From Acanthochlamys bracteata (Eukaryota > Streptophyta > Magnoliopsida > Pandanales > Velloziaceae): a stretch of DNA of 64,000 nt. The translations under genes were made by a program, and so were the position numbers. This document shows positions 44,800 to 64,000 of the stretch, one piece after another. Position 1 is the first letter of the stretch, and each line of letters starts with the position of its first letter. The stretch is from NCBI GenBank assembly GCA_019914995.1, contig CM034137.1, forward strand, positions 5,669,155 to 5,733,154, given 5' to 3'. The notes under the pieces are model-generated. The model was not told the origin of the DNA. It was given only the letters and a program-made list of their open reading frames with translations, and did not search any database.

Positions 44800-45350
44800 A
44801 AATGCAGGAAATCCTATTCTGGCAGCAAAAAAAAAAATCCACAAAGTCTGCCTACCATACTGATGCTTAACTGCTTATAATAGATAAAAAAAAAAAGAAG
44901 AAACCCTATGTTGATAGCAATAAACCACAAACAAGAATGCTCTTAGTGCTTATACAGTTATGCTAGGAAAAATATATAGGAAATTCTATGCTGATAGTAA
45001 GAAAAAATAATTCCACAAAGTCTGCCAAACTAATGCTTATACTAGATCAAAAATCCAAAAAAGTCTATGCTGGCAGCAGGAAAAAAATTCCACATACAAG
45101 ATTGTCATACTAGTGCTTATACAGTTATGCTAGATAAAAAAATACAAAAAAATTCTATTCTGATAGTAAGAAAAATAATTCTAGAAAGTCTGCCAAACTA
45201 GTGCTTATACTAGATCAAAAAAATCCCAAAAGAGCCTATGCTGCTGGCAAGAAAAAACTTCCACAGCAGCCAGACTGCCATACTGGTACTTATACTAAAT
45301 AAAAAAAATTCCACAAAATCTTATGCTTGCAGCAAGAAAAGAAATTCTAG
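44800..45350. repeat. Minisatellite, 75-90-bp unit, about 6 copies
   Basis: The core 'tgcttata' recurs at about 44872, 44946, 45034, 45113, 45202 and 45286 (a variant), i.e. every 75-90 bp. Each unit also carries 'ctatgctg.tag.aagaaaaa' and 'ttccacaaagtctgcca.act'. Alternate units share 'gcttatacagttatgctag', suggesting a two-unit higher-order period of about 170 bp. It lies inside the presumed hAT element. Confidence 0.75.
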
Positions 45351-48661: not shown

Positions 48662-48679
48662 TGACAGGTGTGGGATTTC

Positions 48680-48720
<41 letters not shown>

Positions 48721-48741
48721 CGACCACTCGGCCAAACTGTC
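48662..48741 (-). tRNA. tRNA-Leu (anticodon UAG)-like gene, probably degenerate
   Basis: Read on the minus strand it begins GACAGTTTGGCCGAGTGGTC and has an anticodon arm CCAGA-TTTAGGC-TCTGG, giving anticodon TAG for Leu (CUA). A class-II variable arm follows (TCCGAAAGGGC), then a T arm GTGGG-TTGAAAT-CCCAC, the acceptor 3' strand ACCTGTC and discriminator A. Length and shape fit a plant tRNA-Leu. Two oddities: the T loop reads TTGAAAT where nearly all tRNAs have TTCAAAT (C56 changed to G), and acceptor pair 6 is T opposite C. Both argue for a decayed or poorly functional copy. Confidence 0.8.
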
Positions 48742-56570: not shown

Positions 56571-56648
56571 CACAACTTAAAAGGATTGCATAATATTGTG
56601 TACAACATCTATTTGGATATCCAAACATGCCAAAATAAGTTCATCATC

Positions 56649-57720
56649 CTACTCTAGATGAATAACTAAGTCTTCATCATCGTTGTCGTCGTCTTCACTT
56701 GTGTCTTTGTCTTCCGCATCATTTGTACCGGTAACTATCAAGTGAAAGAGTAATGACCAATGTCAAGAACTAAGTAAAAGAGTAATGACCAAAGTTAGTA
56801 AGTGAGGAATCAAGGAACTAAGTAAATTAGTATACTTATTTTTTTTTCTTTCTATTTGGATTTTTAGGACAATTTCGTTTGTCGTGTTTAACACCGGATT
56901 TATTACAGTAAGCGCATCTTCTGCGTGTCTTCGTTTTGGCTCTTGCAGTAGCTTTCTCCAAACCTCCTTTTATTCGAGTACTACTCTTACATACCTTCCC
57001 TTTTTCGTTTCTGCCCTTCGTTTGTGAGATGTTGGGATTCAAAAGTAAAACTTGAGATGCCTCAATATGCTCTATTAAACTCTCACTAGCAGTATGTTGA
57101 TTGTCAGCTAAAATCTTATCCCGGTCGTTACTCTTTCTTACTTCTTTGAGCCCCTGTGAAACCTCTTCTAACTTTTGCAACAACAATTGGTATCCGTCAT
57201 TGGTTTCCGCTGCTTCATAAATCAATTGGTTGAAAACCATCTGGAGTTAAGTAGTTCTCAATAGCTCAGTATTCTCGTTGCTACATATAGGTCTCATATC
57301 ATATGTAACTTTATATTTGTTAGCTCTTCTTCCTCCATCTCTGAAGAATAAACTAATCTTGTATCTGTATATCTCGACTCTGAAAAATCTTCATAAGATG
57401 TCCACAATGAATCCCTAAAAACTTAAAGAGTTTGCATTCACAATTATCTTCCTTTATGGATGGATTAAATTTCACCCTCCACTCACGCCGATCACCTTCC
57501 ATCGAGACTTATAAATATAAGTCGTGTAGACATCACTACCCTTTTCATCTTCACGCAGAACATACTCAGATTGAGATTTTTCAAATTCTTTCTTGAACTT
57601 GTCGTACACATTTCTTGTGTACACTTTTGCTGCATATTTTAAGACATATGAGTTGCCTTCTACAATGCGACTCGAGTGCTCACTTATATAATCCTCTTTT
57701 TTTTCATTTTCAGTAAATTT
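56649..57720 (-). pseudogene. FAR1-related / MULE transposase C-terminal fragment
   Basis: The minus strand carries, from about 57720, broken frames matching 'YTRNVYDKFKKEFEKSQSEY' and a SWIM zinc-finger region, followed by an open stretch (56836-57240) with 'ASQVLLLNPNISQTKGRNEK', 'RIKGGLEKATARAKTKTRRR' and a zinc knuckle CAYCNKSGVKHDKRNCPKN. All four CCHC ligands are present, unlike in the right copy. A splice to an acidic last exon ending 'LVIHLE' and TAG at 56649-56651 is plausible. The N-terminal FAR1 domain and the DDE core are missing beyond the 57720 breakpoint. The reading frame is broken near 57420-57500. Confidence 0.8.
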
Positions 57721-57850: not shown

Positions 57851-57852
57851 TT

Positions 57853-57855
57853 ATG

Positions 57856-57940
<85 letters not shown>

Positions 57941-57945
57941 GTACA
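57853..57945. repeat. (TA)n microsatellite, about 90 bp
   Basis: Near-perfect alternating AT with a few G interruptions. It lies exactly at the outer edge of the right FAR1/MULE element. Confidence 0.9.
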
Positions 57946-58779
57946 TATTGTGCACATTGAATCACAGCCGTTGGATCTTGATCCGACTACCGTGATTCTA
58001 ACAAAGGAAGAAACAACGTTGTTGTTGGGTGGTCAAGGGCACGCTCGTCATTCGCGCCCCCTTGGCGTGAGAGTTAAAATTTTTTTTTTTTCTCATTTCT
58101 CGCTCGCGAGCTCCTTGTCTCCGCCCGAGCGATCGTCTCCCGATCGATTCGGCGCGGTTTGACGATCGCCGGATGCCATTTTTCTTAATTTCTTCTCCTC
58201 TCTTCGATTCCTCGGCCAATTTTATCTTTCCTGCAAGTGATAGCCACCCTTAGCTCGAACACCGCGGCGAAACATCCACACTGCTGGCCGGCGATCGTCA
58301 TTCGGAGCTCAAAAATCGCGCTATTCTCTTCCTCACTTTCTTCTGATCGTTCTGGATTGATCGATTTCATCAATTCCGGCACCGAGCGTGTTGTCGGCGA
58401 TGGCGGGATACGGTAAGCTACGATTTTTTTTTTTATAATCAATTTTGTCTGTTTCGTTCTCGGTTGATCAATTTCATCAACATTCTACTTATACGCGTTC
58501 TTTTCTAATTTTTCTTGAATTTTTTTCTAGCTCGGCCGGCGCTGCCAGTGACGATGCTTCAATAAAACTTTTGCAGGTATTTCAATGTCAATCACTGATT
58601 GCATCTGTTTGAGTGAATGTTGGAGCAGAACAGAACAGAGATGCATCAGTGAATGTTTGAACAGGTGAAGGGATTAGTGAATGCTTGAACAGAGATTTGA
58701 GTGAATGTTTTGAATAGATACAAATATTTGAATGCATCAGTGAATGTTCTTTTAGGTGAATGCTTATTGTAAGCTATGT

Positions 58780-58900
58780 AATTGTGTAAATGTAATGCTC
58801 AAGAGGAGCTATGTTTTAAGTGAATGCTAGCGTGAGTAATTGTGTAAATATAATGCTCAAGAGGAGCTATGTTTTAAGTGAATGCTAGTGAGCCATGCAA
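58780..58900. repeat. 58-bp direct repeat, 2 copies
   Basis: AATTGTGTAAATGTAATGCTC plus AAGAGGAGCTATGTTTTAAG is repeated at 58780 and 58838. The GAGCTATGTTT core recalls the 35-bp repeat of the left element. Confidence 0.7.
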
Positions 58901-59019
58901 CTGAGAATGCTCGTTGTGAGCTATATACTTGTGAATGCAATGCTTAAGGTTGAACTCTTGCAAGTGTTATATGTGATATTCAAATGAGTTATGTCTAGTG
59001 AATATTCAAACGAGCTTTT

Positions 59020-59863
59020 TCTATTTCACTGTTTTTTTAAAAATATTTCTTTTCGCTTTCTTTTACTATTTATTTTTTATTTTTTTATTTCACTTTTTTT
59101 TCACTGTTTTTTTTTCATTGTCTTCTGTCATTGTTTCTTTTTCATTTTTTTTATTTCACTGCTTTTTTCTACTATTTTTTTTCATTGTCTTTTTTTCACT
59201 ATTTTTTTTCACTTTTTCATTTCACTGTTTTTTTTAATTATATTTTTTCACTTCTATTTTTCATTATTTTTTTTTTATTTTTTTTATTTCATTGCTTTTT
59301 TGTACTTTTTTTTTTCATTGTCTTTTTTCACTATTGTTTTCCACTTTTCTATTTCACTGTTTTTTTTTATTATTTTTTTCACTTCTATTTTTCACTTTTT
59401 TTTTTCATTTTTTTTATTTCACTGCTTTTTTTCACTGTTTTTTTTTTCAATGTCTTTTCTCACTGTTTTTTATTCATTATTTTTTTTACTTCTATTTTTT
59501 ACTGTTTTTTTTTATTTTTTTATTTTACTGCTTTTTCACTGTTTTTTTTTTCATTGTCTTTTGTCACTGTTTTTTATTCATTATTTTTTTTCACTTCTAT
59601 ATTTTACTTTTTTTTTTTCATTTTTTTATTTTACTGCTTTTTCCACTGTTTTTTGTTTATTGTCTTTTCTCATTGTTTTTTTTTCACTTCTCCATTTCAC
59701 TGTTTTTTTTTCATTATTCTTTTTTCACTGTTTTGGCTTTTCTCATTTTTTTTATTTCACTGTTTTTTTCAACTGATTTTTTTTTCATTGTCTTTTCTTC
59801 CATATTTCCCATATCACTATTTTTTTTAATTTTTATTTCACTGCTTTGTTCTCTGTTTTGGCT
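59020..59863 (+). repeat. Pyrimidine-rich satellite, left inverted arm
   Basis: About 840 bp of T-runs punctuated every 12-20 bp by CACTG, CATTG, CACTT or CATT. The innermost part (59727-59863) includes GTTTTGGCTTTTCTCATTTT, CAACTGATTTTTTTTTCATTG and CCCATATCACTATT, and matches the reverse complement of 63403-63541 nearly base for base. Long Phe/Ser/His-rich frames here are artefacts of the repeat. Confidence 0.9.
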
Positions 59864-60030
59864 TAAATCTTTTTTTATTTCACTTCAATTTTTCTTTCAC
59901 TGTGTGGAAATGCAAACAGAATTGAATATCACAGCTGTATATAACAAATTGCTCCCTATACAATACAACTTAATAAGATTGGATACAACATCCAAACGTT
60001 TCCAAAAAATGGCAAAAAAAAAACATCATC

Positions 60031-62566
60031 TTACTCTAAACGAGTAGCTGATTCTTCTTCTTCACTAGTATCTTCGCATTCACCATCATCTCTATTTTTG
60101 TCTTCAGCATCATCTCTTCCAAAAACTATCAATTAAAATTGATGACAATTGTTAAGAAAAAAGTTTGAATTAAAAAAAAAAGGTATCTTACTAATCAAAA
60201 CTAAGCAAATAATTTTTACTTACTTGTCTTATTCTTTCTATTTAGATTTTTAGGATAATTTCGTTTGTCGTGTTGAACACCAGACTTGTTACAAAATGCG
60301 CATTTTCTACCTGTTTTTACTTTGGCTTTTGCAGTAGTTTTCTCCAAACCTCCTTTTATTCTACCAATACCCTTATAAATAGTTCCTTCTTTTTTTCTTC
60401 CCTTCGTTTGTGATATATTAGGATTCAATAGTAAGACTTGAGATGCATCAACTGGGGCTATTTATTCTAATGCTGGAATGCTATCATGGTCACTAGGCTT
60501 CCTCACTTCTTTGAGCCGTGGTGCTGTTTCTTCTAGTGCTTTCAACAAAATTTGATAGCCCTCGTTGGTTTCAGCAGTTTCGTAAACCAATTGGTTACAA
60601 ATCATCTGTAGGTGTGTAGTTCTGAGTAACTCAACATTTCCATGCCCATTTCAAGATCCACTATCATATTTAGCTCTATACTTGTTTGCCCCTTTCTTCC
60701 ACCGCTGAAGAATAAAGTGATATGGTATCTCTATATCCCGACTCAGAAAAACCTTCACAAGATGTCCACAAGGAATTCCCATAAACTCAAAAAGCTTACA
60801 TTCACAGTTACCTTTCTTTGTTGTTGTATTGAACTTCACCTTCCACTCCCGCTGATCATCTTCCACTCGAGACTTGTAAATATATGTTGTGTATCCGTCA
60901 CTACCCTTTTCATCGTCATGCAGCACATACTCAGTTTGAGCTTTTTCAAATTCTTGTTTGAATCTGTCGTACACATTTCTCGTGTACATTCTTGCTGCAC
61001 TTTGCAAGACAAATGCATTTTCATCCACAATGCAACACGAGTGTTCACTCGTATAATCTTCTTTCTTTTCTTTCTCAATTATTTTTCTCATACACTTTTC
61101 ATTCTTCAATACAAACTCTCGAAGTGTTGTTCTCGACTGAAAAAAATTTTTGTAAATATCATTCATACCTTCGGATCGTCCGGTAGTGTTCATACCGGCA
61201 TAAAAAGTATCCAAGTGATCGACGGGTGCCCATTTTTGTCTAATCTCATATATTTCTTGGAGCCACTTATTCTCTTGCAATCCATATGCACACAATAATT
61301 TTTTCCACCGTATCTCAAAAGTGCTAGGTGTGTAACTTTCTCTAATACACCTTTTCATATCTTTTTTGAAATTTGAACTTTTGAAGTACACATGTGAAAG
61401 CTTTTCCGCAAATTTTTTGAGAATATGCCACAGACAAAATCTATGTCGTGTATTAGGAAATACATTTGCAACAGCTGCAGTCATAGCTCTATCTTAATCT
61501 GTAATGATCGAACGTGGAGCATCACCGCCCATAACTGCAAGCCATGTCTCAAAAAGCCACTGAAAGGACTCTTCTGTCTCATCTAAAAGCAGTGCACAAC
61601 CAAACTGGATTGATTGCATGTGATGGTTGACTCCAGTGAATGGCGCAAATGGCATTTCGTACACATTCGTGCGGTAGGTGGTATCAAAGAATACCACATC
61701 ACCAAAATACTGAAACTGTGTGCGTGATCTGCCATCTATCCAAAAAAAATTTATTGCCCTTGATTCTTCATCCATCTGTATTGCATAAAAAAAACTCAAG
61801 TCTTCTATACTCTTCCTTTTAAAGAAATCAAGGGCTGCGGTAGCATCGCCACTAATAGATTTTTTATATTCCTTCGAGCGGCACAAATGGTTCCAACAGT
61901 CTCTATTATCAAAACCATGCTGAGCTCCGTCAAATATATCTGCAACCTTAGCGATGGGTATGCCTTCATCTCGAAAAGAGTCAATCAATCTCTTAGCTGC
62001 AATGGGCAAATTTTTGCAGACAGGCATACGCATTCTTTTCGCCGGGCTAACTAAGTCGTGATTGTGTTGACCTTCATAACCCACCACTTCCCACATTCCT
62101 TTAAGTTGCTTTTTCACTCTCATTGTTGCAGTGCATCCACACTTCGCCGTACTTGTGCTTCTCTTTTTTTTTGCTTCTTTCTCAAAGACGTCATTTATCT
62201 TTTGCAATCCCCGACTTCTTTGATTTCCATAACGATCACAGGTCATTTGACAAAGAGTGACTTCATCAGAGTTAGCTCGTGTCTTTTCTGTAGATCGAAT
62301 GACGACACTAAACCCCACGGCTTTTTCCATAATTTATATAGAATTGTTTCGCAGCATTGAGGGTTTCAAATGTCATCCCTAAGCACGGTGACTTATCACT
62401 CTCGTTGCGTTCATTTGGAGTTGTAGAAGAAGAACCAAGCTGACAGTCTGAAATTAAATATAGAAAAAATATATATATAAGCAACAACGTCAAAAACTCC
62501 ATAACAAAAGAAAGAGAAGGTCATGATCATTTCTTGAATGGAAATACCTATGTCAAACTGAGCCAT
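60031..62566 (-). pseudogene. FAR1-related MULE transposase pseudogene, nearly full length
   Basis: FAR1/FRS proteins derive from Mutator-like transposases. Ancestral exons by eye: 62548-62566 (MAQFDI), 60224-62448, 60031-60125 (acidic tail ending ATRLE). Domains: FAR1 zinc-binding N domain ('AAKQFYINYG', 'GFSVVIRS', 'CGCTATMRVK', 'WEVVGYEGQHNHDL'); MULE transposase core ('VVFFDTTYRTNVYEMPFAPF', 'SIIT[stop]DRAM', 'RHRFCLWHILKKF'); SWIM zinc finger (CECKLFEFMGIPCGH); C-terminal knuckle CAFCNKSGVQHDKRNYPKN with the last Cys changed to Tyr. Lesions: a one-base A insertion in the A run at 62322-62326; TAA at 61494-61496 where the family has CAA (QDRAM); TGA at 60651-60653 where CGA is expected; and TAA at 60462-60464. 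Otherwise the frame is open over about 270-residue blocks, so the decay is recent. Confidence 0.88.
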
Positions 62567-63402
62567 TATGAGTAGAAGAAGAGATGAATATGAAAAAAAA
62601 TTTTACAAACAATGGTGGATTGCAAAGTTAGCAAAATAGAGGAAGCACAGACAGAGAGGTGGAGACGAGATGAGACGTTAGAAGCGGGAAAAAAAAGATT
62701 AGGTGAAAGTTAATGATGATAGATTAGTTTAATTTAGTAGTCAATGACAAATGTACCCATTATTAAATAAGCTATTCTATGTTTTAATTTAGTTTTTTTG
62801 TCTTTACAGTTTTAAGTTTGCTCTCTTTTAATCCCATTTTTTGCTCTCTGTCGTGTGTTTCATTTTTTGCTCTCTGTTTAATCTTTCATGTTTTGCTCTC
62901 TGTTTAATCTTTTAGTTTTATTTTTGCTCTCTTTTACTCTCTTTTATTTGTCTTTAGTTTTATATTTGCTCTCAGTTTTACTCGGTTTTGTTTGTCTTTA
63001 GTTTTGCTCTGTTTTGCTCTGTTTTGTGGGTGGTATTTTTTGCTCTCAGTTTTGCTCTGTTTTGTTTGTCTTTACGATTTTATTTTTAGTTGCTGGAAGA
63101 TTAAATTTTTGCTTCGTTGCATTGAAAGCCATATATAATCTTCAAACACAACAGAACATACCTCTATAGAAGCTTTCATGATTCATTATCCACAACACTT
63201 CATGATTCATTCGTTCATTCATTCATTCATCATTCACAAGCTTTCATCAATTCATTGTCTATAACACTTCCATTGACAACAAGATTTCATTCATAAAAAA
63301 ATCTTTACAACATTCACAGGTCTTTACAACATTCACAAAAATTTTATTTACCTTATAATCTTCACAACAAAACACAAAGTTGACGCTTACATTTCTGTTT
63401 CT
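62567..63402. repeat. Upstream side of FAR1-related gene: TGCTCTC-rich and ATTC repeats
   Basis: 62800-63085 repeats TTTTGCTCTC(T/A)GTTT with variants about every 20-40 bp. 63200-63240 has (ATTC)n. The remaining sequence is AT-rich and would hold the transposase promoter (minus strand). Confidence 0.65.
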
Positions 63403-64000
63403 AGCCAAAACAGAGAACAAAGCAAAGAGTGAAATAAAAATTAAAAACAATAGTGATATGGGAAATGTGGAAGAAAAAACAATGAAAAAAAAATCAGTTG
63501 AAAAAAATAGTGAAATAAAAAAAATAAGAAAAGCCAAAACAGTGAAAAATGGAAGTGAAAAAAAATAATGAAAAAAAAACAGTGAAATGGAGAAGTGGAA
63601 TAAAAAACAGTGAGAAAAGACAATGAAAAAAAAACAGTGGAAAAAGCAGTAAAATAAAAAAATGAAAAAATAACAGTAAAAATAGAAGTGAAAAAAAATA
63701 ATGAATAAAAAACAGTGAGAAAAGATAATGAAAAAAAATATCAGTTGAAAAAAACAGTGAAATAAAAAAAATGAGAAAAGCCAAAAGAGTGAAAAATAGA
63801 AGTGAAAAAAAATAATGAAAAAAAAAACAGTGAGAAAAGATAATGAAAAAAAAATCAGTTGAAAAAAACAGTGAAATAAAAAAAATGAGAAAAGCCAAAA
63901 CAATGAAAAATAGAAGTGAAAAAAAATAATAAAAAAAAACAGTGAAATGTAGAAGTGGAATAAAAAACAGTGAGAAAAGACAATGAAAAAAAAAACAGTG
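63403..64000 (-). repeat. Purine-rich satellite, right inverted arm (runs off window)
   Basis: The reverse complement of the 59020-59863 array: A-runs with CAGTG, CAATG and AAGTG every 12-20 bp. The inner border AGCCAAAAC at 63403 pairs with GTTTTGGCT ending at 59863. Within the arm the unit 'gaaaagccaaaa..gtgaaaaatagaagtg' recurs at about 63530, 63774 and 63888, a higher-order period of about 115-245 bp. Confidence 0.9.

Follow-up and report, generated by a model that had tools for sequence, protein, structure and literature searches.

The window, the 64,000-nucleotide stretch of the Acanthochlamys bracteata genome analysed here, contains near its end the greater part of a Mutator-like element (MULE) with a FAR1/MULE/SWIM transposase. 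The element measures 8,593 bp, from window position 57946 to window-equivalent position 66538 (C12:5735692), where the right terminus reads CGGGTGGGTTATGTGCAC; the original prediction, with an extent of 57946 to 64000 (about 6 kb), underestimated the size. Pfam matches, on the minus strand and enclosed by the two arrays, fall on FAR1 (PF03101, E 7.3e-14) and MULE (PF10551, E 7.6e-19) in the first open reading frame, SWIM (PF04434) in the second, and the ZSWIM1-3 RNaseH-like domain, with nothing else matched. The FAR1-domain transposase gene expected between the arms is therefore borne out, as is the MULE domain characteristic of Mutator-like elements. Rfam at gathering scores returned one tRNA and nothing else. 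The element is a degenerate MULE, whose features are listed in the table.

Table. Features of the element, its surroundings and two related copies (window positions unless a contig is named)
Feature	Position	Strand	Remark
Piece of an older, ~74%-identical MULE	56590..57720	-	other piece to the right of the element, C12:5736096-5737296
(TA)n microsatellite holding the left end	57852..57948	.	
In-window part of the 8,593-bp MULE	57946..64000	- (strand of transposase)	rest reaches C12:5735692
Outer terminal inverted repeat, left (3') arm	57946..58592	+	inner limit at an internal deletion of ~529 bp (versus L010)
Remaining non-satellite spacer, left arm	58596..58995	+	
T-rich CACTG/CATTG array, 3'-side copy (917 bp), probable ancestral side	58996..59912	+	
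Transposase ORF, C-terminal half: end of MULE domain and SWIM zinc finger	60651..61484	-	ORFs and Pfam
In-frame TAA stop codon breaking the transposase	61494..61496	-	
Transposase ORF, N-terminal half: FAR1 domain and most of MULE domain	61494..62330	-	ORFs and Pfam
5' leader region, transposase side	62331..63404	-	TTTTGCTCTCTG-type tandem repeats at 62835-63068
Diagnostic 'filled' junction, TTTCTAG then CCAAAACAG, leader to copied array	63398..63413	+	exact match at nine genomic sites
Inverted 5'-side array copy	63405..64000 in the window, on to window-equivalent 64878	-	then spacer and outer repeat beyond the window
L017 region	C6:4553950-4563060		
L013 region	C11:2638000-2662500		

Both inverted arms contain T-rich CACTG arrays, of 917 and 1,480 bp. 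By T or A content, which set the array limits, the 5'-side array spans 63399-64878, with 63399-64000 inside the window. As proposed from the window alone, the arrays are reverse complements (for instance 59705-59842 against 63428-63565, 138 nt at 91%). Since low-complexity T/A runs can match by chance, the non-repetitive part of the arm provides the decisive test: 57946-58560 recurs inverted at C12:5735039-5735654, about 1.9 kb beyond the window end, with 93% identity. This match rules out a chance or low-complexity artefact and confirms that the arm continues past 64000 to a matching outer terminus. Long terminal inverted repeats are found throughout the copies from L009, the window copy, to L017, the longest self-match reaching 84.5-90.6% over 1,378-2,980 columns (that of L013 takes in host flank). 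The arrays, 608-1,480 bp long and unequal between the arms of a copy, supply tandem repeats of varying number within long arms, as is typical of foldback elements. The idea that the arms had been largely replaced by a simple satellite does not hold, as a non-satellite terminal repeat (~0.6-0.75 kb) persists, together with a spacer (~0.9 kb in L010); in the left arm of the window copy, about 529 bp are deleted at ~58592 relative to L010.

The left end at 57946 lacks, by eye, the outermost ~9 bp found in other copies. The terminus of this lineage is CGGGTGAGTTATGTGCAC or near it and, compared by eye, differs from GGGGTTTGCTAGAACA, the search mask given for MuTAnT elements in the available part of PMC4486113. 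A (TA)4 or longer run lies within 30 bp outside 28 of 30 termini (a count that leaves out L037 and L038), versus 0.8% of window positions. The two termini without one both belong to L012, the sole copy with ends outside TA repeats, which displays a clean 9-bp target duplication, AAATAGCAT, within the 8-11 bp usual for Mutator-like elements. The 9-11-bp duplication initially expected was thus found in this sister copy only; the remaining recognised termini border on TA microsatellites, and the window copy, with its left terminus lost and its TA repeat, gives no duplication reading. The lineage is located mostly in TA microsatellites. Nested in the older ~74%-identical MULE lies the present element, itself surrounded by a repeat that contains a TA run.

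The genome search for other copies led to ten two-sided copies and eight one-sided relatives that were read, and to an eleventh two-sided copy known from search matches (C2:7780787-7790125). Of 888 candidates for related transposase loci, 139 were scored. Weaker matches at C5:6360857, C19:5848419, C2:6697897, C15:5028654, C15:5030899, C12:3554641 and C9:1921019 lie outside this sample. Among the family members, L015 misses a terminus on one side, L021 consists of a single arm end and L018 has lost its entire core. Among the array matches listed (40 of 56 candidates scored), C8:6893-6894 kb alone falls outside known family copies, which supports neither a general genomic satellite nor the alternative of simple repeats arising independently in many places.

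Reading the junctions directly distinguishes one-sided from two-sided forms. In all eight one-sided relatives (L020, L022, L023, L024, L025, L026/L027, L028 and L037), the array is located 3' of the transposase, while the two-sided copies harbor an inverted copy of spacer and array between the 5' leader and the 5' terminal repeat. In L020, L022, L026 and L028, the 5' leader continues through an 'empty' sequence (TCATTCACAACACAAC...CATAAAACAGAGG); L023-L025 carry a different 5' leader, so that this junction is not readable in them. The later part of the empty sequence (query positions 105-261) has no match in the ten fetched two-sided copies, except for 3-4 starting bases in L017. There, the ancestral leader runs up to ACAAATTTTT and is followed by an inverted copy of the element's own 3' flank, TTGCCATTTTTT, leading into the array, the copied tract reaching ~120 bp beyond the array. 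A trimmed junction, TTTCTAGCCAAAACAG, is shared at nine places, namely eight of the ten fetched two-sided copies and the unfetched C2 copy; L013 has lost it by deletion, and L014 has additional sequence just inside it. Judged on these sequences, the L017 junction is apparently an earlier form than the trimmed one.

In the core tree, rooted on the chosen outgroup L038, the array is absent in the outgroup, the one-sided copies occupy successive branches and the ten two-sided copies stand together. Nine of these, without L017, form a clade at 100/100, whereas support for uniting all ten is low (68/36; recovered in 74% of bootstrap trees), the one-sided L020 being unresolved beside L017. With this choice of root, the tree supports a polarity from one-sided to two-sided. 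Given the weakness of the inclusive clade, the extension in L017 and that in the nine may have been separate events, and descent of the trimmed junction from that of L017 is thus not demonstrable.

Within copies, the two outer arms are sisters in 10 of 15 cases (mean under label shuffling 0.34, maximum 3) and the two spacers in 6 of 7 (mean 0.42, maximum 3), although the spacer pairing is less firm than the best tree suggests, bootstraps giving 3 to 6 of 7. Left arms and right arms were never seen as two groups in the arm trees, which cover spacers of at least 600 bp and outer arms of at least 300 bp. L011, L014, L015, L017 and L025 are unpaired in the best outer-arm tree, and L010 in the spacer tree. 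The arrays are only partly homogenised: in 3 of 10 copies the two arrays are each other's best match, and array length differs within a copy (917 versus 1,480 bp here). Because the arms pair by copy and not by side, the two arms rewrite each other; at the level of sequence, the pairing shows copying from arm to arm and is silent on its timing and pathway. L036, whose transposase core is ~3% from that of L009, has outer arms that are both merely 68-69% like those of L010 and 97% like each other; by sequence, both are of another subfamily's type.

These comparisons indicate that the satellite was at first one-sided and was then copied to the other side, leaving an unusually clear record of arm growth, and not that it replaced the arms. 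We consider it highly probable that the arms grew by copying: repair of the 5' end from the 3' arm, trimming, spread and continued mutual rewriting. The ancestor would have carried ~0.7-kb terminal repeats and a single T-rich array, 3' of the transposase. In one lineage, the 5' end would have broken; most likely, its damaged terminal repeat was then repaired with the homologous repeat of the 3' arm as template. Synthesis would have proceeded through spacer and array to ~120 bp beyond the array, before the product was joined to the 5' leader in a short run of T. With the inverted spacer and array thereby placed on the 5' side, the arms would have become about three times as long. Subsequent deletion would have trimmed the inner edge to the junction of the window copy, the trimmed form then multiplying, and since the extension the two arms of each copy would have kept rewriting each other. 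We infer break repair, as opposed to template switching during replication, as well as the standing of L017 as ancestral form and any link with transposition.

Two other readings concern the role of the arms. They may have been kept for function, if the CACTGTTTTTTT units serve as extra transposase-binding sites and were retained in both arms by selection. CACTGTT also occurs in subterminal sequence (TGCACTGTTCGTGCAC) and is present 12 and 21 times in the arrays of the window copy, but a 7-mer match is weak and the one-sided relatives amplified as well; we regard this reading, which is compatible with an origin by copying and not opposed to it, as unlikely. We give similarly low credence to the arms acting as a silencing trigger, read-through transcription yielding a putative ~2-kb hairpin RNA diced into siRNA. 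Comparing the left 2.8 kb of the window copy with its right 3.2 kb gives exact partners for 899 of 2,777 24-mers, the longest uninterrupted match being 144, and a hairpin RNA is proposed for the maize Mu killer locus in the part of PMC3440606 available; the same pairing is, however, expected of any long-armed element, and a hairpin would be a consequence of the arms, not their origin.

Recombination between two elements, joining the 3' arms of two inverted copies into a symmetric composite, would yield the same inverted terminal repeat, spacer and array on the 5' side, and the foreign outer arms of L036 suggest that arms of different subfamilies recombine. It is nevertheless rather improbable, since a normal 5' leader is joined just ~120 bp inside the donor array edge, which fits a limited copy tract. 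Finally, loss of the 5' array in the relatives, from an ancestor with arrays in both arms, is highly improbable and largely refuted by junction sequence: deletions are frequent (the left arm of L009, the L013 junction, the L018 core), but four one-sided copies carry a 5'-junction sequence that no deletion could create, L017 retains part of it, and one-sided copies occupy successive branches above an outgroup stretch without array.

Growth of the arms by copying has its closest parallel in Galileo, a P-superfamily element of Drosophila (PMC3573991, portions available). Galileo also has long arms with tandem repeats unequal in number between arms and TIRs lengthened by internal sequence from beside the other TIR, copied in inverted orientation, for which repair from the other TIR is proposed; its arm repeat units were found to be extra transposase-binding sites. 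It differs in transposase superfamily and host kingdom, the P-type THAP transposase having no counterpart among the Pfam matches here. In the text available, its longest TIRs are never found in nearly complete copies, whereas ten extended-arm copies here carry (broken) transposase genes, and a likely junction intermediate, L017, is visible here, unlike in Galileo.

Among MULE-related systems, compared on the available portions of the cited texts, MuTAnT/AutoMuTAnT of Medicago (PMC4486113) and the SaTar MULEs of guayule and rice (PMC5907723) also reside in TA microsatellites. AutoMuTAnT, with a Jittery-like transposase (4,873 bp), and AgS-MULE1 (5.3 kb, 400-bp TIRs) are smaller than the present element, and those portions mention no satellite arms. 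Tm1, a Mutator/Foldback element of Meloidogyne (PMC3169594), shares a MULE-type transposase, 9-bp duplications and arms of short tandem repeats unequal in number between ends, but has an unrelated unit of ~14 bp and a Phantom/FLYWCH-type transposase; the portion available describes no one-sided ancestors and discusses TIR-length expansion as the likely origin. FARE, an Arabidopsis foldback with a MULE domain named in the same source, likewise has a MULE-type transposase. Multiple-TIR MULEs of tomato, Arabidopsis and others (PMC3310237, which also mentions extended TIRs in plant MULEs) have structurally duplicated ends and were amplified, but their extension is in tandem and not by inverted copy, and in one family TIRs group mainly by side and position (low support), whereas here they group by copy. 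In the accessible parts of the open-access literature on related cases, we found no plant case with one-sided ancestors or junctions resolved to the breakpoint.

The repeated evolution of long, internally repetitive foldback arms in unrelated transposons is an open question. Here, a single plant genome offers an outgroup without the array, relatives with it on one side, what is likely an early extension whose donor tract can be read base by base, two-sided copies with the trimmed junction, and a paired arm exchange, so that foldback-arm growth becomes testable step by step in MULEs. The same system lends itself to asking whether foldback arms seed host palindromes and silencing hairpins. Tentatively, and with the odds against it, the arms might be self-propagating, every repair of an end rewriting it from the other, so that they grow inward, swap as matched pairs between subfamilies and sometimes run outward into host DNA; if true, transposon arms would seed large chromosomal palindromes in plants. 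In the assembly, L013, on C11, occupies the middle of a palindrome with ~8 kb of flanking host DNA in its arms, ~99% identical.

Alignment of the two arrays of the window MULE (window at C12:5669155-5733154 of the 195.5-Mb genome) confirmed that the T-rich and A-rich arrays are reverse complements, lying within a larger inverted repeat truncated by the window edge. As originally noted, they enclose a FAR1-domain MULE transposase gene, carried on the minus strand with FAR1, MULE and SWIM domains and broken by a TAA at 61494-61496. The inverted arm expected beyond 64000 was recovered by a DNA search of the genome, which placed an inverted match of window 57946-58560 at C12:5735039-5735654 (93% identity), and its outer end was located as CGGGTGGGTTATGTGCAC, adjoining a TA run at C12:5735692. 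The total length is 8,593 bp; ~9 terminal bp, judged by eye, are absent from the left end, and ~529 bp are missing from the left arm at window 58592 relative to the related copy L010.

Coordinates of features in and around the family
Feature	Position	Description
Palindrome	C11:2638210-2662158 (L013/L034/L035)	arms ~10.5 kb, including ~8 kb of host flank at ~99%
Older MULE pieces	window 56590-57720 and C12:5736096-5737296	same family as the element
Short tandem repeats of TTTTGCTCTCTG type	window 62835-63068	transposase 5' leader

The family was sampled as 20 stretches around DNA matches to the element, plus some later ones, seven weaker matches being left out. Further copies were present: nine more with arrays in both arms (L010-L017 and L036) were read besides the window's own, L009, and an eleventh such two-sided copy, at C2:7780787-7790125, is known from search matches alone. 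In all ten read copies, the parts of the transposase examined are interrupted by one or more stops or frame breaks. L018 (~3.1 kb) retains one arm in full together with a short outer end. Array-like matches at C8:6893580-6894233, beyond these copies, may be another family fragment. L038 (C4:7101000-7105900), a shorter related MULE, lacks arrays. Its transposase region is covered by an open frame of 758 aa, its inverted repeats match at up to 96%, and it is probably a younger lineage.

A target-site duplication, proposed as a check at 9-11 bp, was found in the sister copy L012, flanked by the 9-bp AAATAGCAT; the other recognised termini adjoin TA runs. Termini were recognised with up to three substitutions, setting aside L037-L038 and loci that duplicate others or contain flanks. 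Of the 30 so recognised, 28 carry (TA)4+ in the 30 bp immediately beyond the element, a state of 0.8% of window positions, and the remaining two are both ends of L012.

The best explanation, in which we have considerable confidence, is that the inverted arms grew by copying, the 3'-side array being copied to the 5' side. Eight relatives carry the array only on the transposase 3' side (L020, L022, L023, L024, L025, L026/L027, L028 and L037). A-rich stretches near the 5' end of L022, L026 and L028 are situated where the outer terminal repeat borders the interior, a place at which L009 is also A-rich, and were read as parts of that repeat. The leader of L020, L022, L026 and L028, which form the empty-junction comparison (that of L023-L025 is different), runs on as TTTCTAGTCATTC(A/C)CAAC..., and the sequence into which it leads (query 105-261) has no match in the ten two-sided copies, save the first 3-4 bases in L017. 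In most two-sided copies, the leader switches at TTTCTAG to CCAAAACAG, followed by the inverted array. The resulting 16-mer occurs exactly at nine places (L009-L012, L014-L016, L036 and the C2 copy), the reversed pattern, used as control, giving one match. L014 has additional sequence immediately inside this junction, and L013 lost it to a deletion spanning it. In L017 the leader is of the empty type (with an exact 18-mer match at C6:4560194) as far as ACAAATTTTT. From there the copy's own 3' flank follows in inverted form, reaching the array ~120 bp on; the join was placed within a short T-run. From these sequences we infer that L017 would represent an earlier junction and the nine-place junction a trimmed descendant. 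In L020 an unrelated insert is bordered on both sides by ancestral 5' sequence, so this copy is not a case of simple loss.

Regarding polarity, in a transposase-region tree of 20 rows, rooted on L038 by choice and with one row (the older host MULE's right piece) 45% filled, L038 (array-free over the 4.9 kb read) and the one-sided L037 fall outside the other copies, one-sided copies branch off successively, and two-sided copies lie together. The nine two-sided copies without L017 are supported at 100/100, as is the group that takes in one-sided L020 as well; the ten two-sided copies as sole group receive 68/36. Two separate extensions, that of L017 and that of the nine, may have occurred and are compatible with this tree; our confidence in the best explanation is slightly lowered because the tree leaves room for them.

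Comparison of the arms indicates that the two arms of a copy rewrite each other. When 17 left and 16 right outer arms (33 in all) are placed on one tree, left/right labels require 15 changes. Outer arms are sisters within 10 of 15 copies (bootstrap 5-95% range 8-12; label shuffles mean 0.34, maximum 3), L011, L014, L015, L017 and L025 being unpaired in the best tree. Spacers, the non-satellite parts between outer repeat and array, are sisters in 6/7 copies (3-6 across bootstraps; label shuffles average 0.42 and reach 3 at most), the exception being L010. The outer arms of L036 (C7) are 97% like one another and 68-69% like those of L010, and its transposase core differs from that of L009 by ~3%. 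These outer arms belong to a second terminal type, also found elsewhere in the genome including C2; L036 and the C2 copy combine it with the common trimmed junction, and paired arm exchange between subfamilies appears to have occurred. Arrays are matched less well than arms: shared 14-mers are 0.48 within copies versus 0.32-0.36 between, and the own mate is the mutual best match in 3/10 copies (L009, L013 and L036).

L013 is central in an inverted repeat (C11:2638210-2648676 / 2651743-2662158; 96.4% over 10,554 columns) with identities, in 400-column steps, of 97-100% in host flank, 94-95% in outer repeat and 99% in spacer. Inverted flanks were absent from all seven other copies tested (0.4-0.5 kb per side; L015 and L036 left out). 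The palindrome, a possible consequence of arm rewriting, could be a real inverted duplication or an assembly join of haplotypes misjoined through the arms.

The separate parts of this system are of known kinds, since precedents are described in the portions of the literature consulted: Galileo, whose arms grow in the same manner as in the present MULE and for which a repair model is given (PMC3573991), the Mutator/Foldback element Tm1 with arms of tandem repeats (PMC3169594), MULEs targeting TA (PMC4486113; PMC5907723) and sequence-acquiring plant MULEs, with mention of extended TIRs (PMC3310237). No plant MULE that combines them and preserves the successive steps was found in the open-access literature searched.

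The window MULE sits in a TA-containing repeat, matched by an L011 flank at 91%, and this repeat lies inside an older MULE 74-75% like L010, forming a three-level nest. Elsewhere in the window, a 168-bp tandem repeat of about two diverged copies occupies 44944-45295 and a minus-strand tRNA-Leu gene 48662-48741.
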